From an uncultured bacterium (GTDB lineage: Bacteria; Eisenbacteria; RBG-16-71-46; CAIMUX01): 9,973 nucleotides of DNA. Made by a program: the position numbers and the translations under genes. The stretch is taken from contig CAMPIC010000061.1 in assembly GCA_946886185.1 (NCBI GenBank), positions 1-9,973 of the forward strand, written 5' to 3'. How positions within the stretch are numbered: the stretch's first letter is position 1; the number at the start of each line of letters is the position of its first letter. The notes under the pieces were generated by a model. It saw nothing but the letters and a program-made list of their open reading frames with translations, searched no databases and was not told the origin of the DNA. This document shows, in pieces, positions 1 to 9,973 of the stretch.

Positions 1-3000
1 GACGCGGACAGCGCATGGTCGGACCTTTCGAATCGACCGACCATTCCCATCGCTTCCTCAGATGACGCGATTCCTCCCGCCGCGATTGCCAATCTCGAAA
101 TCGTGGAAGTGAGCGCCGACTCCGCGCGACTGGAGTGGACGGCGACCGGCGACGATGAGCATGAAGGGCAGGCGGCGCGCTACGAAATCCGGTGGGCGAT
201 CTTCTCGATCGATGAAGCGACATGGAACCAGGCGACGATCGCTCCGAATGCGCCCAATCCAGCCATGTCCGGAGAGCGTGAATCGTTCTGGCTGTATTCG
301 CTGCCATGGAACCAGCGATTCTGGGTCGCCGTGCGCGCCGCTGACGATGGCGGGAATCTCTCCGGGCTTTCCAACGAATCCTCCGCGGATGGTTCAGAGG
401 ACCCGGTTCCTCCAGATGCGGTGCAGGACTTGCGCGCGAGCCTCGAAAGCCCGACTTCCGTCCGGCTGGACTGGACAGCGCCCGCAGATTCGGTTGGAAC
501 CGTGAGGGAATATCAGATCCGATATTCGGTGGATCCGATCGAGGAAGCGAACTGGCACTACGGCACTCGAGTCTTGAGTCCACCGGCGCCGGGTGCTCCA
601 GGGACTCCGCAATCGCTGACGATCTCCCGGCTCGAGGAAGCGACAACCTACTTCTTTGCGCTCAAAGCGGAGGACGAGGGCGGGAACGTATCTGCGCTTT
701 CCAACGTGCCGTCCCTGACCATGCCTGCCGACATGATCCCTCCTGCACCGATCACCGATCTTCGGATCGTGGAAGCAGCCGGGGATTCCGCTTTGACGAT
801 TTGGACGACGACTGGAGACGACGGCTACTCCGGGACTGCCGCGCTCTACGATCTTCGCTCCGCGCCGTTTCCGATCGACGAGAGCAATTGGGACGCGGCA
901 ACCATCGCGCCGAACCCTCCTACGCCTTCCAGGGCAGGGACGACCGACGCGTACCGCTGGCGCTCGCTCCACCCGGGAATTCGATCCTGGCTCGCGCTGC
1001 GGAGCATCGATGAATCGGGAAACGAATCGGAGATATCGAATCTGGCGATCGCCTATCCCGATCCAGATGTGTATCCCCCATCGCGCATCTCCGATCTCTC
1101 CATCGCGGCGAACACCTACCACACCGCGACGTTGAGCTGGACCGCACCTGGGGACAACGACGAGTCGGGTCAGGCCGAACGATACGATCTGCGCATCTCT
1201 CCGACGCCGATCGATCCCAACGATTTCGAGTCCTACGAAACGCGTCCCGCGCCGGAACCGCAAACCTCCGGCTCCAGTGAGAGCGTGATACTTGTGGATT
1301 TGCCGGGTGGGGGGACCTACGCCGCGATCCGCGCGATCGACGACGCGGGCAACGCTGGCGAGGTCTCTGACGTCATCGCTATCCAATTGCCGGCGGACGA
1401 TCAACCTCCCAGCGTCATCACCGATCTGGAAGCGGCCGTTCTCGGCGACTCTGGAGTCGAGCTCCTCTGGACCGCTCCGGAAGACAACCAAGGTCTCGAC
1501 CGGATCGTCCGCTACGACGTGCGCTATCTCGACGAGCTGCTCGACGAATCGAACTGGGACCGCGCCGCGAAAGCGAAAGATCCGCCGACGCCGTCTGCTC
1601 CCGGCACGCGGGAACGGATGATCATCGAGAATCTACAGGCCGGCATCACTTATTGGCTCGCGGTTAAGGCCGTCGATCTGGCGGACAACGCGGCAGACAT
1701 CTCGAACATCGCGTCCGTCACCATTCCTGAGGACGGCCCGTTCGTCACACAGCCGGATGGAAGCGGCACCCATCGGAACATCCAGGCCGCTCTCGACAGC
1801 GCCGTTCCAGGCCAGCTAGTTCTCCTCGGCGATGGTGTGTTCGAAGGACGAGGCAATCATGACCTGGAGTTCCCTCCATTCGACGTGACCGTGCGCTCCA
1901 TATCCGGAAATCCCAACGCATGCGTGATCGATTGCGGATCTCCGGAGAGCGAGGAGATCCAGGCCGTCTCGGGCAATGTCCCGGTCGGATCGGGAACGGA
2001 GATCCGGGGAATCAAATTCCGCGGAGGGCGCTCGCTCTTGGGTGGAGCCATGCACATTCGCGATTGCGATGATCTCCTCATCCGCGATTGCCTCTTCGAG
2101 GGCAACCGGAGCTCCCAGGAGATCGACCCGGGAACAGGCGGTTTCTTGATCGAACGATCGACGGTTCGACTCGTCGATTGCTCCATGACCTCTTCCTTCG
2201 GCGACATGATTCTCCTCGACGCCCAGTCTCGACTCGAGGCGATCCGGTGCCGCTTTATCGGCGTGGGCTACGGCGCGGCGATTCACGCCAATGGCGGATC
2301 GGTCTACATCGAGGACGCAGAGATTCGTCCCGGTTGCAACGAGAACTGCTCCGCGATCGATTGCGACGGATGCGAGCTCGAGGTGCACGGAACTTCGATC
2401 GAGGATGTGGTGCAGGGAGTCGCCCTGGGCCTGACTAATGGCGCGGACGCGCAGATCTTCGATTCCTCCGTCTCCGAGACATGGTTGGAGGGCGTGCCTC
2501 TCATCTACTCGAATCAGAGCCGACTTCATTTGGAGCGCTGCACGCTCGACCGCGTTTTTGGTTCCGGAAGCAGCGATGCCCTCCGCGCCAGCAATTCCGT
2601 TGTCGCGCTCGTAGGATGCGAGCTGCAAACAATCAGAGGGGTACAGCCGGCGAGCTTCCAGGATTGTGACGTTCTGATCGAAGGTACCTCGACGCGCCGT
2701 TTGCAGCCGCCCGAGGAGGATGGACCCGAGACGATCCTTTCATTCGATGGAGCATGTGACGTGGTCGTGCGAGAGTCCACGCTGTGCGGAAGCTTCCTGT
2801 CGGATCGAGTGCGTTCCGGACGTGCGCCGATCCTCGCGATGAACCAGGGATCGCTCACGATCGAGAACTCCATCCTCTTCGGCAACGAAAACGGGGAAGC
2901 GATCTCCGCGGGAAATGCGACTGTGGCGATCCGCTGCACCGACATTTTCGGCAACAGCTATCGACAGGAAGGCGAGCCCGACCCGATCGACGGCAATTGG

Positions 3001-3177
3001 ATCGGCCCCATCGCGGAACAGCTCGGACAGAACGGCAACATCGAAGCCGACCCACGGTTCTGCGACCCCGATGCACACGACTATCGTTTGCAACCCGCGT
3101 CCCCGTGCGCCCCGTTCTCGGAACCGAACCCCGAGTGCGACCGAATCGGTGCCTTCGACGTCGGCTGCGCCCCGTGA
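1..3177 (+). CDS. Secreted/surface FN3-repeat and right-handed beta-helix protein (5' partial)
   Basis: The reading frame is open from the first base, so the start lies upstream; 1058 residues are visible. Residues 1-11 are the end of one FN3 domain. Five full FN3 domains follow, starting near residues 25, 137, 247, 359 and 469, each opened by a 'PP..I.DL'-type strand and about 110 residues long. Shared motifs are W-T-A/T-x-G-D-D, Y-(D/E)-(I/L/V)-R, 'PIDE..W' and 'D..GN.S..SN'. From about residue 580 a right-handed parallel beta-helix begins with 'DGSGTHRNIQAALDSA' and 'GDGVFEG', a pattern typical of pectate-lyase-like or DUF1565-like helices. The end has 'ADPRFCDPDAHDYRLQPASP' and 'IGAFDVGC', which usually close such helices. 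There are no cysteines before residue 641 and 20 after. No type IX sorting domain, LPXTG motif or C-terminal membrane segment is visible, so the mode of attachment is unknown. A role in adhesion or glycan binding is inference; no catalytic residues were identified. Confidence 0.88.
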   Translation, partial: DADSAWSDLSNRPTIPIASSDDAIPPAAIANLEIVEVSADSARLEWTATGDDEHEGQAARYEIRWAIFSIDEATWNQATIAPNAPNPAMSGERESFWLYSLPWNQRFWVAVRAADDGGNLSGLSNESSADGSEDPVPPDAVQDLRASLESPTSVRLDWTAPADSVGTVREYQIRYSVDPIEEANWHYGTRVLSPPAPGAPGTPQSLTISRLEEATTYFFALKAEDEGGNVSALSNVPSLTMPADMIPPAPITDLRIVEAAGDSALTIWTTTGDDGYSGTAALYDLRSAPFPIDESNWDAATIAPNPPTPSRAGTTDAYRWRSLHPGIRSWLALRSIDESGNESEISNLAIAYPDPDVYPPSRISDLSIAANTYHTATLSWTAPGDNDESGQAERYDLRISPTPIDPNDFESYETRPAPEPQTSGSSESVILVDLPGGGTYAAIRAIDDAGNAGEVSDVIAIQLPADDQPPSVITDLEAAVLGDSGVELLWTAPEDNQGLDRIVRYDVRYLDELLDESNWDRAAKAKDPPTPSAPGTRERMIIENLQAGITYWLAVKAVDLADNAADISNIASVTIPEDGPFVTQPDGSGTHRNIQAALDSAVPGQLVLLGDGVFEGRGNHDLEFPPFDVTVRSISGNPNACVIDCGSPESEEIQAVSGNVPVGSGTEIRGIKFRGGRSLLGGAMHIRDCDDLLIRDCLFEGNRSSQEIDPGTGGFLIERSTVRLVDCSMTSSFGDMILLDAQSRLEAIRCRFIGVGYGAAIHANGGSVYIEDAEIRPGCNENCSAIDCDGCELEVHGTSIEDVVQGVALGLTNGADAQIFDSSVSETWLEGVPLIYSNQSRLHLERCTLDRVFGSGSSDALRASNSVVALVGCELQTIRGVQPASFQDCDVLIEGTSTRRLQPPEEDGPETILSFDGACDVVVRESTLCGSFLSDRVRSGRAPILAMNQGSLTIENSILFGNENGEAISAGNATVAIRCTDIFGNSYRQEGEPDPIDGNWIGPIAEQLGQNGNIEADPRFCDPDAHDYRLQPASPCAPFSEPNPECDRIGAFDVGCAP

Positions 3178-3362: not shown

Positions 3363-3962
3363 TTGGACCGTAGACCACAGGATCGCGATCGAGTCGACGA
3401 ATCAGACACCCGATGGGATCGTCTGATGACTCTGCTCGAACCGATCCACGAGTCCGCGGCCATGACGGCCCGGCGGCTTTCTCGGACTACCGGAGAAGGG
3501 GACGACCTGTACCAGGAGGCCCTCCTCCGAGCCTTCCGGAAGCTGCCCTCCCTTCGAGACGAATCCCGATTCCGATCCTGGTTCTTCGCGGTCCTCTTGT
3601 CCTTGCACCGTTCTCGCAGCCGGCGCGCGTTCTGGAAGCGCTTCCTCCCTCTGGACGAAGCCTCCTCCGAGCGAACGATGCCCGTGTGGAGCGTGACGGA
3701 CCAGGACGAGGCGGCGCGGGCCGATCGGGCGTCGAAGGCGCTCGCCCTGCTTCCGGCAGTACAACGGGAAGCGATCGTGCTGTTCGAAATGAACAGGTTC
3801 TCCATCGCCGAGATCGCGCAGCTCCAGAACGTGTCGGAGTCTGCGGTCAAGTCTCGGCTGGCACGAGGGCGCGAACGGTTGCGCGGCGCGTATCGCCGCT
3901 TGGGAAGGACGGAGGTTGCCAGTGAACGACCGAAGCTCCAATTCGAACGGACGCCTCGATAA
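3363..3962 (+). CDS. ECF-type RNA polymerase sigma factor
   Basis: A 199-residue sigma-70 family protein that should direct core RNA polymerase to a small set of promoters. Region 2 spans about residues 24-95 and contains 'DDLYQEALLRAFRKLPSLRD' and 'RFRSWFFAVLLSLHRSRSRR', matching the region 2.1-2.4 pattern D-x-x-Q-E-x-(F/L)-x-(K/R)-(A/V)...F-x-x-W. A charged linker follows. Region 4 (about 124-175) contains 'LALLPAVQREAIVLFEMNRF' and the helix-turn-helix 'SIAEIAQLQNVSESAVKSRL', then 'ARGRERLR'. No region 1.1 or region 3 is present, which gives the ECF architecture and usual length. The TTG start is chosen for its GAAGGA site; an ATG at 3426 would give 178 residues and keep both domains. The last 41 bases overlap the next gene, indicating co-transcription. 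Its regulon cannot be read from this window. Confidence 0.9.
   Translation: MDRRPQDRDRVDESDTRWDRLMTLLEPIHESAAMTARRLSRTTGEGDDLYQEALLRAFRKLPSLRDESRFRSWFFAVLLSLHRSRSRRAFWKRFLPLDEASSERTMPVWSVTDQDEAARADRASKALALLPAVQREAIVLFEMNRFSIAEIAQLQNVSESAVKSRLARGRERLRGAYRRLGRTEVASERPKLQFERTPR
3911..3915 (+). promoter_or_regulatory. Ribosome binding site for the putative anti-sigma gene
   Basis: GGAGG lies inside the 3' end of the sigma gene, 6 bases before GTG at 3922. It favours this GTG over the TTG at 3916, which directly abuts the site. Confidence 0.65.
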
Positions 3963-4980
3963 CGGGCGCTCCGAACACCTCGACCAGCAAGTCCTGAAAG
4001 ATTTGGCGGCTCTTCGCGAGCGCACTTCCCGCGGTGCTCCGGGCATCGATCGCGCGCTCCGAACTGCCCGCAATGCCCACGAATCGGGCAGAGGAGGAAT
4101 GTCGATGCTTTTCCAGACCGGTACCAGGAGATGGATCACGTTCGCGGGAGGGCTGGCGCTCGCAACGCTCTTCCTCGTCGGAGTACCTCTCCCCTATCAG
4201 CGCACGGTCGGGCATGAAGTCACGCTGAGCCTTTCCGGCGCAAGCCTGGATCGCTCGCAGCTCCAGCACGTCGCCGATCAGATGCGCTCGCTGCTCCACT
4301 CTCGCGGAGTGCGCGTCTCCATGGCCGAAGAATCGGCCGGCGATCCGCGCTTCGAATTGACCACCGATGTCCCGCGCGAAAGCAGGGTCGACGTCCAGAC
4401 GATGGCGCAGGCTTTGGAAGCTGCGCTCGAGGCACGAGGCTTCGATGCGAAGACGCGGGTCGAGGTGCGCAAGGAGCGGATCTCCGGAACCCTCCTCGCC
4501 ATGGCGCAGGAACGCATCATCGAGATCAGCGTCGACGGTAAGAGCGCGTCCGAATTGGAAGCCGAGATCAGTCAGGCACTCACCGAGGCGGGCCTGGACT
4601 ACGCGGAAGTGTCCGTGGAGGAGGAAGCGGGCGGCGGCAAGCGCGTCCTGATCGAGGCCAAGGCCGAGAGCGATCAGCCCGGCTCCGGTGAAGTGCTCGA
4701 GCCGACCATCGTGCTCACTTCGAACGGCCAGCCGCTCTCCGAGCAAAGCGACGCGAAGCGCACGACCTGCCGAGTCATGAAGAGAGTGGAGGACAGCGGA
4801 GCCGTTCTCGCGATCGAAGTGACGACGAACTCTCGCGAAACGACGGTCGAGATCCCGAATCCGGAGACGTACTCGGACTCGGACCTCGCCTCGGAGATCG
4901 AGTCGCGCTTGTTCGCGGAAGGCGTCTCGGCGGACGTCACGGTCGAGGATGGGCGCGTCGAGCTGTCCGTCCGGGATTGA
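3922..4980 (+). CDS. Single-pass membrane protein, putative anti-sigma factor
   Basis: A 352-residue protein from the GTG start. About 70 N-terminal residues ('LDQQVLKDLAALRER' and a basic 'RTARNAH' stretch) would be cytoplasmic. A hydrophobic segment at about residues 71-90 ('WITFAGGLALATLFLVGVPL') is a single membrane span. The remaining 260 residues should lie outside the cytoplasm. That part looks like divergent copies of a strand-helix-strand-strand unit, clearest at 'EISVDGKSASELEAEISQAL' and 'DSDLASEIESRLFAEGVSAD', with related stretches just after the membrane span and around 'VDVQTMAQALEAALEARGF'. The overlap with an ECF sigma gene and the topology fit an anti-sigma factor. No H-x3-C-x2-C zinc anti-sigma motif is present, and the only cysteine lies far down the outer domain. 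The role is therefore inferred from context. An alternative is an envelope protein co-regulated with the sigma factor. Confidence 0.7.
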   Translation: MNDRSSNSNGRLDNGRSEHLDQQVLKDLAALRERTSRGAPGIDRALRTARNAHESGRGGMSMLFQTGTRRWITFAGGLALATLFLVGVPLPYQRTVGHEVTLSLSGASLDRSQLQHVADQMRSLLHSRGVRVSMAEESAGDPRFELTTDVPRESRVDVQTMAQALEAALEARGFDAKTRVEVRKERISGTLLAMAQERIIEISVDGKSASELEAEISQALTEAGLDYAEVSVEEEAGGGKRVLIEAKAESDQPGSGEVLEPTIVLTSNGQPLSEQSDAKRTTCRVMKRVEDSGAVLAIEVTTNSRETTVEIPNPETYSDSDLASEIESRLFAEGVSADVTVEDGRVELSVRD

Positions 4981-5319: not shown

Positions 5320-6090
5320 CTACTCCATTTCGGGCCGCCGAACGAGGCGCGCGAGATCTCCGGGAGTGTTGACGTTGAGAAATCCGCCCTCGAGGTCGCG
5401 AGGCAGCTCCAGCCAGCGCGTATGAACGAGGTCCAGGAATCGATGGGCTGCTCGTTGGCCTTCGTCTAGATAGCGGCGCAGGTCAGGCAATGTCTCGGGC
5501 TCCGCGAGCACGACGGCCGGTTCCAATTGCCCGCTCGCCAGTCGAAACGCCAGCGCGGGTGCGCTCCCGCGAGCGGCGAGCAGCAGATCGAGCGCGCGCG
5601 GATCCAGCCGCGGCAGATCACACGGGATCACGAGCGCGGCCTCGCCGGCGGCGAACTCGAGCGCCGTCTCGAGCCCCGCGAGAGGACCGGCGCCGGGACG
5701 AAGATCCTCACGGCTTCGCAGCTCCGGAAAGCTCTCGGGGAATGCCGAGAGATTCGGCACCTCGGGATCGCCGCGCGCGATCTTGCGCCCCACGACCCAC
5801 GGCTCCGCGAATCGTTGCGCGAGGAGCAGGATCGCTCGCTCGAGCCAAGTGAGCTCCGGCTCATTGATCGCGATCGCCGGATCACGCGACGTTGTAGGTG
5901 AATTTGCGACGCGTGGCGACGTGGATGGATGCGCGTCGTCCGATGACGTGGGCGGATGCGCACCACGAGCAGACGTGCCGCCGGCGCCGTCGGAGTCACC
6001 GGACTTACCGTGCGCCTCTCGCATCCGGAGCGCGGCTTTGTCGCGTCCCATTCGCGCGGAGCGCCCGCCGGCCAGGACGGCGCCGATCAT
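5320..6090 (-). CDS. mobA: Molybdenum cofactor guanylyltransferase MobA, with inserted repeat
   Basis: A 256-residue protein that transfers GMP from GTP to molybdopterin-bound molybdenum, giving the bis-MGD cofactor used by DMSO-reductase-family enzymes. Residues 3-20 carry the nucleotidyltransferase signature 'GAVLAGGRSARMGRDKAA'. Later come 'GPLAGLETAL', 'VIPCDLPRL' with the metal-binding Asp, and 'FLNVNTPGDL', all in MobA order. The protein is longer than the usual 190-210 residues because about 55 residues (24-80) are inserted after the GTP-binding motif. They are rich in Ser, Thr, Pro, Gly and Asp and include three 9-residue repeats. The catalytic motifs seem intact. It is the last gene of the operon. 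Its ATG overlaps the moaC stop as ATGA and no clear Shine-Dalgarno is visible, so translation probably depends on coupling to moaC. Confidence 0.92.
   Translation of the reverse strand: MIGAVLAGGRSARMGRDKAALRMREAHGKSGDSDGAGGTSARGAHPPTSSDDAHPSTSPRVANSPTTSRDPAIAINEPELTWLERAILLLAQRFAEPWVVGRKIARGDPEVPNLSAFPESFPELRSREDLRPGAGPLAGLETALEFAAGEAALVIPCDLPRLDPRALDLLLAARGSAPALAFRLASGQLEPAVVLAEPETLPDLRRYLDEGQRAAHRFLDLVHTRWLELPRDLEGGFLNVNTPGDLARLVRRPEME
5881..5961 (-). repeat. In-frame 27-bp x 3 tandem repeat in mobA
   Basis: Three 27-base units at 5935-5961, 5908-5934 and 5881-5907 encode AHPPTSSDD, AHPSTSPRV and ANSPTTSRD (MobA residues 44-70). The first two units are closest; the third is more diverged. 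The encoded peptide is hydrophilic and probably unstructured. Confidence 0.75.
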
Positions 6091-6956
6091 GCCCGGCGAA
6101 AGTCACCGCTCTTGCCGCCCGACTTCTCGAGCAGCCGGATGGGACCGATCTCGATCCCTTTCTCCACCGCTTTGAGCATGTCGTAGACGGTGAGCGCAGC
6201 CACCGACACGGCGGTCATCGCTTCCATTTCCACGCCGGTGCGCGCGAACGCGGACGCCGAGGCGACGATGCGGACGTTCTCTCCCTCCAGGGTCAAATCC
6301 ACCTGAACATGGTCGAGCGGCAGCACGTGGCACAACGGAATCAACTCGAACGTGCGCTTGGCCGCTCCGATTCCGGCGAGACGGGCGACCTGAAGGACGT
6401 TTCCCTTCGCGACATGCGAGTCGGCGATCGCAGCGGCGGCCGCGGACCCCACGTGGACCCATCCTTCGGCGACCGCGCGGCGGGCTGTCTCCTTCTTCTG
6501 GCCGACGTCGACCATGCGAGCTTCCTCGTCCGGACCGAGATGGCTCAGAGAACGATCGATCCGACGGGAGGACGTGTCGAAGCGGTCCATCGGATGGCCG
6601 TCTCCACTCCGGCGCTCATCGGGATAGTTGGGAATCCGGTCACCCGGGAATCGAGTATACGAATCGTCTGCCTCCGCGCGACGAATATCCAGAACGCCGT
6701 CGTCCGCGTGACGAGTATCCGGATCGCCGGCATCTGCCCGTCGAGTATCCGGATAGCCGGCATCCGCGCGCCTCGTATTCGCATGGTCGCGATTCGCATG
6801 CTTGGTATCCGCGTGGTCGGGATCGGCGGGCCTGGTATCGGGACCATCGAATGGGACATCCGGATGGTCGGCTTTTGAATCCGTTTGGTCGGTCTTCGGC
6901 TCACGATCGGTGCGCGCGAAGAATCCGCGCCTCTTTTCACCCGACTGGTCGCTCAT
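6087..6956 (-). CDS. moaC: Cyclic pyranopterin monophosphate synthase MoaC with repeat-rich N-terminal extension
   Basis: A 289-residue protein. The core (about residues 138-289) is MoaC, which converts the MoaA product 3',8-cyclo-GTP to cyclic pyranopterin monophosphate in the cytoplasm. Visible signatures are 'ARMVDVGQKKETARRAVAEG', 'KRTFELIPLCHVLPLDHVQV', 'TGVEMEAMTAVSVAALTVYD' with the active-site Asp and Lys of Y-D-M-x-K, and 'EKSGGKSGDF' at the end. MoaC is normally about 160 residues; here some 130 Asp/Arg-rich residues precede the core, including seven 10-residue repeats. The start at 6956 is supported by the ATGA overlap with moeA and a GGAGG site 7 bases upstream. An in-frame ATG at 6590 would give 167 residues, the normal family length, but its nearest GGAG is about 11 bases away. 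Two products are therefore possible. The stop overlaps the mobA start. Confidence 0.93.
   Translation of the reverse strand: MSDQSGEKRRGFFARTDREPKTDQTDSKADHPDVPFDGPDTRPADPDHADTKHANRDHANTRRADAGYPDTRRADAGDPDTRHADDGVLDIRRAEADDSYTRFPGDRIPNYPDERRSGDGHPMDRFDTSSRRIDRSLSHLGPDEEARMVDVGQKKETARRAVAEGWVHVGSAAAAAIADSHVAKGNVLQVARLAGIGAAKRTFELIPLCHVLPLDHVQVDLTLEGENVRIVASASAFARTGVEMEAMTAVSVAALTVYDMLKAVEKGIEIGPIRLLEKSGGKSGDFRRA
6630..6839 (-). repeat. In-frame 30-bp x 7 degenerate tandem repeat in the moaC extension
   Basis: Seven 30-base units encode DTRPADPDHA, DTKHANRDHA, NTRRADAGYP, DTRRADAGDP, DTRHADDGVL, DIRRAEADDS and YTRFPGDRIP (MoaC residues 40-109). The consensus is D-T-R-x-A-D-x-x-x-x. On the plus strand the mark is a 'GTATCC'-like word recurring at exact 30-base steps from 6651 to 6840. 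The middle units are the most alike and the flanking ones more decayed, as expected for a minisatellite that expanded from its centre. Confidence 0.85.
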
Positions 6957-8227
6957 GTGGCTACCTCCCCTGCTCTCTTCGACTCCGACGGCATCGCCGC
7001 GCTCATCTCGCGCTCTCGGAAGAGCGGATGCACCACAACGGGCGTACCCGCTTCCACGTCGGAATGCTCCGATTCGATTCGGATCAACGCATCGGCATAT
7101 CCGAGCGCGATGAAATCTCCCGATCCGTGATATTGCACCGGCGCCACCGAGGCCTCGGACATCCGCGCCGGGATGAAATGGGTCAGACCGGGCTTCCGAT
7201 GGATATCGCGCCCCACCGGCAGGCGGATCTCGAGAGGCTCGGGATGCGTCGCGCCGGCCGACTTCCGCAAGAGAGGGAGCAAGAACTCCCACGCCGTCAC
7301 GCAGACCGAGACCGGATTTCCAGGCAGTCCGAACGCAATCTGCCGCTTCCCCGCTTTCCGGCGCGTGGCGAAGAGAAGCGGTTTGCCGGGCCGGAGCGCG
7401 ATGCGATGAAAATGGATCGAGAATCCCGCTTCTTCCAGCAAGTCGGGGACGAGATCGAACTGTCCCATCGACACGCCGCCGGTGAACACGAGGACATCCG
7501 GCGAATCCTGGCCCGCATCGAGCGTGCGCCGCAGTGAGGCCATGCGATCCCGCGCGCGCCGCGCACGGACAGTCCCGACCCATCCGCTCATGGAGAGCAT
7601 CGCCTGCAGGAGCGCACCGTTGCTGTTGCGAATCTGCTCGGGCCGCGGCCTCTGATCCGGTTCGACCACCTCGTCTCCCGTGGTCACGATCGTGACCGAC
7701 GGCCGTTTCCATACGGGTGGCTCGGTGATGCCAATCGAAGCGAGGATCGCGATCTGCGCCGGAGTGAGTCGCGTCCCGGCCAGTAGAAGCGGTTCCCCGC
7801 GCCGCGCATCCTGACCGCGGGGCGCGAGCCCCGGACGGGCGCCCCGGGTCTCGAATGGTCCAGTGAGGCGCACTTGTTCCCCGCACGGTTCTGAGCGTTC
7901 CACCATCACGACTCCGTCTGCTTCGGGCGGGACCGGCGCACCCGTCATGACGTGCACCGCTTCTCCTGGCGCGAGCCTTCCTCGGAATCGATCTCCCGCG
8001 GCCACCTGACCGCGCAGGCGGAATAGCGTGCCCGACTCGTTCCAACCCCCATCGAGACGGACCGCGAAACCGTCCACGGCCGCGCGATCGAACGGGGGAA
8101 GGTCGCGATCGGCGCGCACATCGCGCGTTAATACGGCTCCGCGCGCATTCAAGAGCGGCTCGGTCGCGCGCGCGGCACGTAGGGCATGTGAGAGGACGAT
8201 CTCGAGCGCTTGATCGACCGTGATCAT
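6953..8227 (-). CDS. moeA: Molybdopterin molybdenumtransferase MoeA
   Basis: A 424-residue protein of normal family length that inserts molybdate into adenylylated molybdopterin in the cytoplasm. Motifs in order: 'PPFDRAAVDGFAV' (residues 44-56, with the conserved Asp at 52), 'MTGAPVPPEADGVVMVE' (94-110), 'TTGDEV' (182-187), 'IRNSNG' (199-204), 'TGGVSMGQFD' (249-258), 'RPGKP' (279-283) and 'GLPGNPVSV' (300-308). A domain IV-like strand region follows. The start is placed at ATG 8227, where the family alignment begins and where ATGA overlaps the decarboxylase stop; a weak AGGA lies 8 bases upstream. Its own stop overlaps the moaC start as ATGA. Unlike its three operon neighbours it has no repeat insertion. 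Confidence 0.95.
   Translation of the reverse strand: MITVDQALEIVLSHALRAARATEPLLNARGAVLTRDVRADRDLPPFDRAAVDGFAVRLDGGWNESGTLFRLRGQVAAGDRFRGRLAPGEAVHVMTGAPVPPEADGVVMVERSEPCGEQVRLTGPFETRGARPGLAPRGQDARRGEPLLLAGTRLTPAQIAILASIGITEPPVWKRPSVTIVTTGDEVVEPDQRPRPEQIRNSNGALLQAMLSMSGWVGTVRARRARDRMASLRRTLDAGQDSPDVLVFTGGVSMGQFDLVPDLLEEAGFSIHFHRIALRPGKPLLFATRRKAGKRQIAFGLPGNPVSVCVTAWEFLLPLLRKSAGATHPEPLEIRLPVGRDIHRKPGLTHFIPARMSEASVAPVQYHGSGDFIALGYADALIRIESEHSDVEAGTPVVVHPLFREREMSAAMPSESKRAGEVAT
6964..6968 (-). promoter_or_regulatory. Ribosome binding site for the long moaC start
   Basis: On the minus strand GGAGG (CCTCC on plus) sits 7 bases before ATG at 6956, inside the end of moeA. It is the clearest Shine-Dalgarno in the operon and supports translation of the repeat-bearing N-terminal extension. 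Confidence 0.65.
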
Positions 8228-9973
8228 GAGTCGCGTCCTGACTCGTCGTGCAGGGAGACGAGCAGATCGAATGCTTGTCGCACGTGTTTCTCCTCCGTAC
8301 GCAGATTTCCGATCGCGAGCCGGAGCGTGACCCGACCCGAAAGGCGCGTCGGAGCCAGGAACACCGGGCCCGCCGCGGAGACGCGAGCCACCAGCAGCTC
8401 GTTCGCCGCGTCTTCTTCTTCCTCGGACAGTCCCGGCCAGCGGCCTCGGAAGCAGACCGTGGAAAAGGGAACGGGAGCCGCCAGAACGAAACGATCGTCC
8501 GACTCGATCCAGGAAACGAAGCGACGCGCCAGCGCGCAATGCGCGCGCACACGACCTCGCAGACCTTCGACTCCGAACGTCCGGATGACCCACCAGAGCT
8601 TGATCGCTCGGAATCGCCGCCCGAGCTGGACTCCGTAGTTCATGAGGTCCACCGGCGTGTTCCATTCGGTGTGTGATTCGCTGAGGGCTTTCCATTCGGT
8701 GTGTGTTTCGTTGAGGGATTTCCATTCGATGTGTGATTCGCTCAGGGCTCCGCGTTCGACTTCGACTTCGGGGCGCGCACGCTCCTCGGAATCGAGCTCC
8801 GAGGGCGTTTCACCGCGGACATCGCGTTCATGTTCCGGACGCGAACCTGCCTTTCGATCCGGTTTTGCAGAAGCGGAAGGTTCCGTGCGCAAATACTCCG
8901 GCACGAGCTGGAAGGTACGCCGCAGAATGTGCGGGTGACGCGTGTAGAGCGCACTGCAATCGATCGGGACGAACATCCACTTGTGCGGATTCATCAAGTA
9001 CGAGTCGGCTCGTTCGCATCCCACGAACTGTTCGCGCATCTCCGGCAAGATCGCGGCCGCGCCGGCGTAGGCGGCATCCACGTGCAGCCAGAGCCGCTCC
9101 GCCTCGCAGATGTCCGCGATCGCATCCACCGGATCCACGCTCGTCGAGGAGGTGGTGCCCGCGGTGGCGACTACCGCGAACGGGCGGAATCCTGCGGCCC
9201 GATCCTCATGAATCGCATCGCGAAGCGCGCGGGGATCCATTCGATAGGCGGAATCGATTGGAATCTTCCGCAGCCCATCTTGTCCGAGACCGAGAGTGAT
9301 GAGCGCTTTCTCCACGGAAGAGTGCGCCTGCTCCGATGCGTAGGCGCGCAATCGTGGATGCCCGGGAGCCGCGAGACCGCGCACGCGCACCGCGAGATCG
9401 TCCTGAGCTTCGCGCGCCGCCGCGAGCGAGACGAGAGTGCCGATGGAGGCGGTGTCGACCAGTTGGCCGAACCAATCGCGCGGTAGATCGAACATCTGGA
9501 GCATCCAGGACAGGACGCGCAGCTCGAGCTCCGTGGAGGCCGGCGACGTCTTCCAGAGCATCGCGTTGGTGTTGAGCGCGGCGGCGACCAGCTCTCCGAG
9601 GATGCCCGGTCCCGAGGCGGTGATCCCGAAGTAGGCGAAGAAGCCAGGGTGATTCCAATGCGTCACTCCGGGGAGAACGACGCGGTCCAGATCCTCGAGC
9701 AACCGTTCGAACGGCTCTCCCTCTGCCGGAGCCTGCTCGGGCAAGGCTGCGAAGATCTCCCCCGGTGTCACATGCGGCAGCACGGGAAGGGTGTCGACGC
9801 GAGCGAGATAATCCGCGACCCAGTCGACGACGCGATGCCCGTGCGCGCGAAACTCCTCCGGATCCCAGTCCCGAACGAACTCCTCGGAGAGCGTCGCATC
9901 GCCAGGGGCGGAGGAAGGCGAACGGCTCGAGCCGCCGTCTCCGCGGAGGACGTTCGAAGAAGGAGTCTCAGGA
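8224..9973 (-). CDS. Group II PLP-dependent decarboxylase (aromatic-amino-acid decarboxylase type), 5' partial
   Basis: The frame stays open to the window edge, with no ATG, GTG or TTG codon between 9784 and 9973, so the start is outside; about 582 residues are visible. After a Ser/Gly/Pro-rich leader come 'RVVDWVADYLARVDTLPVLP', 'THWNHPGFFAYFGITAS', 'AALNTNAMLWKTSPASTELE', the pyridine-stacking His in 'QAHSSVEKA', 'HVDAAYAG' and the Schiff-base lysine in 'NPHKWMFVPIDCSALY' (Lys codon 8980-8982). 'QLGRRFRAIKLWWVIRTFGV' follows. These are the marks of the DOPA/tryptophan/tyrosine decarboxylase family; the substrate cannot be told. Between 'EYLRTE' and 'TPVDLMNYG' about 73 charged residues (roughly 8660-8880) replace a loop of some 10-15 residues in relatives, and three 10-residue repeats lie in it. 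The gene heads a run of molybdenum cofactor genes and its stop overlaps the moeA start. Its link to that pathway is unexplained. Confidence 0.92.
   Translation of the reverse strand, partial: PETPSSNVLRGDGGSSRSPSSAPGDATLSEEFVRDWDPEEFRAHGHRVVDWVADYLARVDTLPVLPHVTPGEIFAALPEQAPAEGEPFERLLEDLDRVVLPGVTHWNHPGFFAYFGITASGPGILGELVAAALNTNAMLWKTSPASTELELRVLSWMLQMFDLPRDWFGQLVDTASIGTLVSLAAAREAQDDLAVRVRGLAAPGHPRLRAYASEQAHSSVEKALITLGLGQDGLRKIPIDSAYRMDPRALRDAIHEDRAAGFRPFAVVATAGTTSSTSVDPVDAIADICEAERLWLHVDAAYAGAAAILPEMREQFVGCERADSYLMNPHKWMFVPIDCSALYTRHPHILRRTFQLVPEYLRTEPSASAKPDRKAGSRPEHERDVRGETPSELDSEERARPEVEVERGALSESHIEWKSLNETHTEWKALSESHTEWNTPVDLMNYGVQLGRRFRAIKLWWVIRTFGVEGLRGRVRAHCALARRFVSWIESDDRFVLAAPVPFSTVCFRGRWPGLSEEEEDAANELLVARVSAAGPVFLAPTRLSGRVTLRLAIGNLRTEEKHVRQAFDLLVSLHDESGRDS
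8661..8750 (-). repeat. In-frame 30-bp x 3 tandem repeat in the decarboxylase
   Basis: Three units at 8661-8690, 8691-8720 and 8721-8750 differ at only a few bases. In protein order they read ALSESHIEWK, SLNETHTEWK and ALSESHTEWN. The repeat forms the C-terminal end of the insertion that precedes the conserved 'LGRRFRAIKLW' segment. Confidence 0.92.

Follow-up and report, generated by a model that had tools for sequence, protein, structure and literature searches.

Unrelated in-frame tandem repeats in three genes of a decarboxylase and molybdenum cofactor operon of an uncultured Eisenbacteria bacterium

Results

We analyzed a stretch of DNA of 9,973 bp (in the following the window; positions 1 to 9,973 of contig CAMPIC010000061.1, assembly GCA_946886185.1) from an uncultured bacterium whose nearest named relative is Candidatus Eisenbacteria. 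The minus strand of the window carries a tightly packed operon with the gene order decarboxylase, moeA, moaC and mobA, in which neighbouring genes overlap by 4 bases. Three of these four genes contain tandem repeats in frame, with periods of 30, 30 and 27 bp, i.e., multiples of three, and all frames are open.

The decarboxylase gene (8224–9972, minus strand, 5′ end beyond the window) codes for an aromatic-type amino acid decarboxylase dependent on pyridoxal 5′-phosphate (PLP) and matches the Pfam family PF00282 with an E-value of 3.5e-94. Judged by this conserved domain and by the presence of NPHKW, which we take to be the PLP lysine motif of group II decarboxylases, the protein is a PLP-dependent group II decarboxylase. 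Its best relative among the genomes searched is found in Candidatus Eisenbacteria HKST-UBA01 (locus L001; 79% identity over the best segment), and with the orthologue P0125 from this locus as query the closest solved structures are, by name, decarboxylases of 3,4-dihydroxyphenylalanine (DOPA) and of tryptophan. The moeA gene (6953–8227, minus strand) overlaps each neighbour by 4 bases and matches the Pfam families MoeA_N, MoCF_biosynth and MoeA_C. The moaC gene (6087–6956, minus strand) encodes a MoaC domain at residues 148–281 (E 1.3e-51) which contains the conserved motifs, so that the protein can be assigned to MoaC at the sequence level; ahead of the domain there is an N-terminal extension of 134 residues (6555–6956, minus strand). 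The product of mobA (5320–6090, minus strand; Pfam NTP_transf_3, E 3.4e-20), a molybdenum cofactor guanylyltransferase, is identified as MobA by the LAGGxSxRMGxDK signature together with the fold of its predicted model, which resembles E. coli MobA structures, most closely 1h4d (Foldseek E 4e-10).

The decarboxylase array lies in a hydrophilic insert (8653–8877, minus strand) in the loop before DLMNYGVQLGRRFR, a place where the orthologues P0125 and P0124 have 5–6 residues. The array itself (8660–8749, minus strand) consists of 3.0 copies of a 30 bp unit with a Tandem Repeats Finder score of 145 and 86% match, and the units read ALSESHIEWK, SLNETHTEWK and ALSESHTEWN. In moaC the N-terminal extension contains a block of self-matches with period 30 (6652–6839, minus strand), a degenerate array of about six DTRRADAGYP-like units which run from DTRPADPDHA to DIRRAEADDS and of which adjacent ones are 63–77% identical. 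The mobA insert, which is of low model confidence and disorder-like (5869–6021, minus strand), is located in the loop after LAGGRSARMGRDKAAL, the nucleotide-binding signature, and holds a weak array of three 27 bp units (5881–5961, minus strand; AHPPTSSDD, AHPSTSPRV and ANSPTTSRD) with 70% and 56% identity between adjacent units, 27 being the best period within the gene.

When the codons of each insert were shuffled, none of 1000 shuffles for the decarboxylase, none of 1000 for moaC and 1 of 2000 for mobA reached the best period score. Compared with 200 shuffles of the whole mobA gene, the score of 16 lies above the 95th percentile (14) and below the maximum (20), and on the protein level the periodicity was equalled in 7 of 1000 residue shuffles; the mobA array is absent from the Tandem Repeats Finder list even at a score of 30. 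The arrays of the decarboxylase and of moaC are far beyond chance, and that of mobA is weaker but significant. For moeA we found no repeat above the gene's own shuffles (best period score 11, 95th percentile 14). The original prediction, made from the DNA sequence alone, of three different in-frame repeats in these genes is confirmed by the shuffles, with mobA as the weaker case. It had also placed the repeats in loops or at a domain edge where catalytic motifs survive, and this agrees with what we find: two repeats are located in loops and one in an N-terminal extension, and the motifs NPHKW, AKGNVL, LIPLCH, GVEMEA, YDMLKA, GGRSARMGRDK and PCDLP, which presumably are the catalytic ones, are all found in the window proteins.

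In the AlphaFold model of the decarboxylase (P0121), which is of middling quality (12 sequences, mean predicted local distance difference test score (pLDDT) 70.6, other weak segments at residues 1–40, 122–127 and 142–145), the pLDDT is below 50 at residues 374–443. In the MobA model 170 of the 256 residues have a pLDDT of at least 90, and the block means over residues 31–70 are 45–54. From these models we infer that the inserts of both proteins may be disordered.

For homologue statistics the 120 best of 7997 (decarboxylase), 7999 (MoaC) and 234 (MobA) matches were used. The lengths were parsed with regular expressions, which failed for 4, 9 and 102 of the 120 sequences, respectively, and the statistics are taken from the decarboxylase and MoaC sets. 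Among the 116 decarboxylases read the median loop length is 19, compared to 90 in the window, 54 in P0123, 42 in P0122 and 23 in the next homologue. In the 111 MoaC proteins a median of 18 residues precedes the MVDVG/S motif; the window has 147, P0002 has 139 and the next homologue 52. As far as these sequences go, long inserts are restricted to the nearest relatives of the window.

The nearest relatives differ considerably at these sites. The decarboxylases P0124 and P0125 have hardly any loop insert, P0123 has an insert of different sequence, and P0122 has one of 28 residues, ending in ...SRSEHAEWNTP ahead of VDLM, which resembles a single unit of the window (SESHTEWN); the unit count is thus zero in P0124 and P0125, one in P0122 and three in the window. 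MoaC P0004, 90% identical over the aligned 55% of the query, has no array, and in P0002 the same extension carries a strong 14-residue array of another sequence (equalled in 0 of 1000 shuffles). In the alignment the MobA inserts of P0242, P0243, P0244 and P0245 vary in length and sequence, and that of P0250 comprises about 20 residues. P0242 resembles two units (AHPSESSSD and VRPSTPSRD) compared to three in the window, with a periodicity that is not significant alone (equalled in 319 of 1000 shuffles). A second MobA record, P0241, shares the window's array, with the same copy number, and differs at two residues, both outside the insert; it is the single near-identical allele compared. In this comparison of orthologues, with conserved enzyme cores, the arrays are missing, reduced to a single unit or replaced by others, and we therefore conclude that they most likely arose in situ at tolerant sites.

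Between the units the ratio of nonsynonymous to synonymous differences per site (pN/pS) is 1.86 for the decarboxylase (nine changes), 0.62 for moaC and 0.48 for mobA. Because these values exceed those of the genes compared with L001 (decarboxylase 0.25, MoeA 0.36), the repeat peptides are, on this measure, less constrained than the enzymes.

A separate observation concerns the decarboxylase at positions 8644–8646 of the window, where a leucine is encoded at the place at which animal DOPA decarboxylase, as we assume, has its catalytic tyrosine. The same leucine is aligned in P0125 and also in 7xin and 6khn and is therefore no mark of the insert.

The three inserts have only words of 7–10 bases in common. 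We searched 39 relatives with the DNA of the decarboxylase and moaC arrays, leaving the mobA array aside. Matches with E ≤1 were short and occurred in 20 and 37 genomes, with best E-values of 0.019 and 0.007, respectively, a level expected by chance. A dispersed identical sequence was found neither within the window nor, for these two arrays, in the 39 relatives. Inverted repeats of at least 12 bases are lacking in two of the inserts, and within the moaC array there is one imperfect 16-nt pair (81%). With regard to the window and to these two arrays the claim that one element did not simply copy itself has held up.

The scan of close relatives for similar arrays counted arrays with a period of at least 12 and a score of at least 70. 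The stretches of the relatives are not random, several contigs having been picked for carrying a search match. Stretches around search matches (L032, L053–L098, L139–L168 and L209–L211) were left out of the counts; in an earlier survey L053 had stood under G003 (it repeats one L125 array; 36 versus 35 arrays) and L084 under G001, and L054–L098 without L084 amounted to 6 arrays in 143 kb. Arrays were called coding by a simple codon model. The own model of G001 labelled all seven arrays of this genome noncoding, probably owing to training on short contigs, and the G002 model was then applied to G001 and the window.

The window has 2 arrays in 10 kb, G001 has 7 in 175 kb, G002 19 in 240 kb, G003 35 in 400 kb and G005 24 in 160 kb. 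The other genomes gave 0 in 80 kb (G006), 0 in 80 kb (G016), 3 in 80 kb (G017), 3 in 80 kb (G021), 2 in 160 kb (G022), 1 in 80 kb (G024), 0 in 120 kb (G105), 0 in 40 kb (G123), 1 in 120 kb (G142) and 0 in 101 kb (G147), and the remaining loci 8 in 359 kb and 0 in 67 kb. The density per 100 kb is 7.9–15 in G002, G003 and G005, 4.0 in G001 and about 1.3 in the other sampled stretches. Taken together, the 78 arrays in 800 kb of G002, G003 and G005 contrast with 18 in 1368 kb of the others, G001 and the window excepted (p 7e-19), and also with 7 in 280 kb of the GC-rich genomes G017, G021, G024 and G123 (p 6e-5). Compared with the 18 in 1368 kb the density of the window has a p of 0.009, and compared with G002, G003 and G005 one of 0.26. 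The excess is not uniform across the relatives, since G123, which is fairly close by its decarboxylase, has no arrays in the 40 kb sampled.

G002, G003 and G005 together have 59 coding arrays, of which 48 have a period divisible by three. In the pool of G001, G002, G003, G005 and G006 the corresponding figures are 51 of 64 for coding arrays (p 4e-14 when one third is expected) and 8 of 21 for noncoding or unclear ones (Fisher p 0.0007 for coding versus the others). This excess in coding arrays is the pattern expected from selection against frameshifts.

From the 59 coding arrays we chose by hand 17 array-bearing open reading frames (ORFs), mostly long ones, for a Pfam search, and 16 of them match families at E 1e-5, the hosts including UvrA-like, QueA, Fmt, DeaD-like, RpoN and Asp/Glu racemase proteins. 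Several arrays are inside or next to domains of housekeeping proteins. In QueA the array (about residues 360–400) falls inside the domain, whose 371 residues correspond to 321 profile positions, and in Fmt (about 309–337) it falls inside a C-terminal domain that is extended to 119 residues compared to 97 profile positions. The array sits between domains in the DeaD-like helicase, past the last domain in RpoN and ahead of the domain in the racemase. As the QueA unit contains a VGTTTVRALE-like sequence, which we take to be a native motif of the QueA family, this array seems to have been copied from the gene's own DNA.

Loss of MutS was considered as the cause of the repeats and rejected. The family MutS_I was matched in 13 of the 15 genomes searched, among them the repeat-rich G002, G003 and G005; it was unmatched in G001 and G123, both of which are possibly incomplete.

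The gene neighbourhood seems to be older than the repeats. At L001:5676–8772 the decarboxylase gene is found together with moeA and the beginning of moaC, and on contig C52 of G003 (131254–134542) moaC and the decarboxylase gene are about 1.4 kb from each other; since these neighbours are together in L001 and close in G003, the aromatic-type decarboxylase was probably paired with the cofactor genes before the repeats arose. The MoeA of L001 (L001:7169–8497) has a hydrophilic stretch with RETGSRRESQEDREPG which is about 18 residues longer than the equivalent place in the window MoeA. Elsewhere in the window, positions 1–3177 code for a large protein that runs beyond the window start and contains domains of the fibronectin type III and beta-helix kinds. 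The region 3363–4980 holds a sigma factor gene (Sigma70_r2 and r4_2 matches) and then a second ORF which overlaps it; the 354 residues encoded there match no Pfam family and may form a regulator of that sigma factor. Scanning the window for Rfam families and tRNA genes gave no matches.

Discussion

The arrays described here are coding minisatellites: there are tandem copies beyond chance, the frame is kept and the arrays vary between relatives. We consider it likely that they were born in place, by tandem duplication which is raised in this lineage and filtered by reading frame and loop tolerance, and that they are close to neutral. Stretches of coding DNA would be duplicated in tandem above the usual rate, presumably by replication slippage or unequal exchange. 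A duplication would survive if its length is divisible by three and if it affects either the end of the chain or a surface loop that tolerates insertions, and all others would be purged. The resulting peptides would be disordered, fast-changing and nearly neutral, and the enzymes would retain their ordinary functions.

The suggestion that a genome-wide process produces repeats which are tolerated as multiples of three is supported for the sampled stretches of G002, G003 and G005, whose coding arrays also occur in housekeeping genes, and does not extend to those of G006 and G123. Several points weigh against our interpretation. G001, by its decarboxylase the closest of the genomes searched, does not clearly exceed the GC-rich controls with its 7 arrays in 175 kb (p 0.42), and arrays are absent from the stretches of G123 (40 kb; 61% decarboxylase identity) and G006 (80 kb). 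The window was chosen for its repeats and its own density is therefore biased and carries little weight; that its genome resembles G002, G003 and G005 in array rate would have to be supposed. The simplicity of the codon model and the non-random choice of stretches are further weaknesses. No difference in copy number was seen among strains of one species. Finally, the pN/pS values of moaC and mobA below 1 leave room for some constraint on the peptides, and neutrality is not proven.

It could be argued that the inserts were selected as disordered hydrophilic surface loops, for instance for solubility, ion tolerance or loop dynamics, where many sequences would suffice as long as they are hydrophilic. 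The hydrophilic inserts, the low confidence of both modelled ones, the different sequences at the same sites in relatives and the same pN/pS values would fit this idea. However, the close orthologues P0004, P0124 and P0125 manage without inserts, and tolerated sites explain the same pattern without selection; we regard selection for such loops as unlikely. Still less probable is a small mobile element similar to the Rickettsia palindromic elements (RPEs), inserted in frame and later amplified. According to PMC10969869, RPEs do insert in frame in unrelated metabolic genes. The inserts of the window, however, have no palindromic design, dispersed copies were found neither within the window nor, for the decarboxylase and moaC arrays, in the 39 relatives, and the orthologue P0122 carries a single unit, so that we rejected a mobile element as the main explanation.

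The original prediction also proposed a tethering function of the repeats, by which successive cofactor enzymes would be joined for channelling. Their presence in three of the four genes of a single tightly packed operon would suggest such a function, but we consider it very improbable and do not retain it. The moeA gene in the middle of the operon has no repeat, the decarboxylase presumably is not a cofactor enzyme, and close orthologues have no inserts or unrelated ones. Insert lengths also do not change in parallel across the proteins: MoaC P0006 has 25 residues ahead of its domain and MobA P0244 a 34-residue insert, and as their contigs are of the same length (46268) both probably belong to one genome, in which the inserts are thus uncoupled. 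An assembly artefact has to be considered as well, since the DNA is likely of metagenomic origin and tandem repeats are reportedly a known source of assembly errors. We think this the least probable explanation of all, as the MobA record P0241, with its two residue changes outside the insert, contains the identical array and the units of these degenerate arrays are distinguishable.

Should complete genomes show the same pattern, these bacteria would offer a natural experiment on the insertion-tolerant sites of enzymes as well as on the causes of raised tandem duplication in bacteria, and gene callers and family models may get lengths wrong in this lineage. In the open-licence literature we found no paper on repeats in Eisenbacteria, which is weak evidence of absence.

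The closest known systems are the intragenic minisatellites or coding variable number tandem repeats (VNTRs) of bacteria, in which units of tens of bases likewise follow each other head to tail inside a gene, with a period that is a multiple of three and a hydrophilic product. The best-known coding VNTRs are those of surface and adhesion proteins, of which PMC7230257 gives examples. The same paper reports that over 30% of bacterial proteins contain tandem repeats (by a definition that we judge to be much more permissive) and that short repeats are biased towards protein ends, and it treats housekeeping proteins in a section of their own. Here, in contrast, young arrays of unrelated sequence are found in three genes of the same operon, and some relatives have dense coding arrays. 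With the RPEs the inserts share the in-frame position in unrelated metabolic genes; the RPEs described in PMC10969869, however, are about 150 bp long, dispersed and grouped into ten families, each of which is characterized by a conserved peptide. In the operon analyzed here every insert has its own sequence and grows through tandem copying.

We consider it about an even chance that in a branch of the Eisenbacteria coding minisatellites are produced continually and throughout the genome, by which housekeeping enzymes gain and swap disordered inserts. This would be a bacterial counterpart to the insert-rich proteomes of some parasites, with MutS still encoded in the three repeat-rich relatives. 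In Plasmodium, housekeeping proteins carry low-complexity disordered inserts with rapid turnover in the loops of conserved enzymes, and in these respects the two cases are alike. The Plasmodium inserts are, however, eukaryotic and AT-rich, whereas those described here are bacterial, GC-rich and made of minisatellite units.

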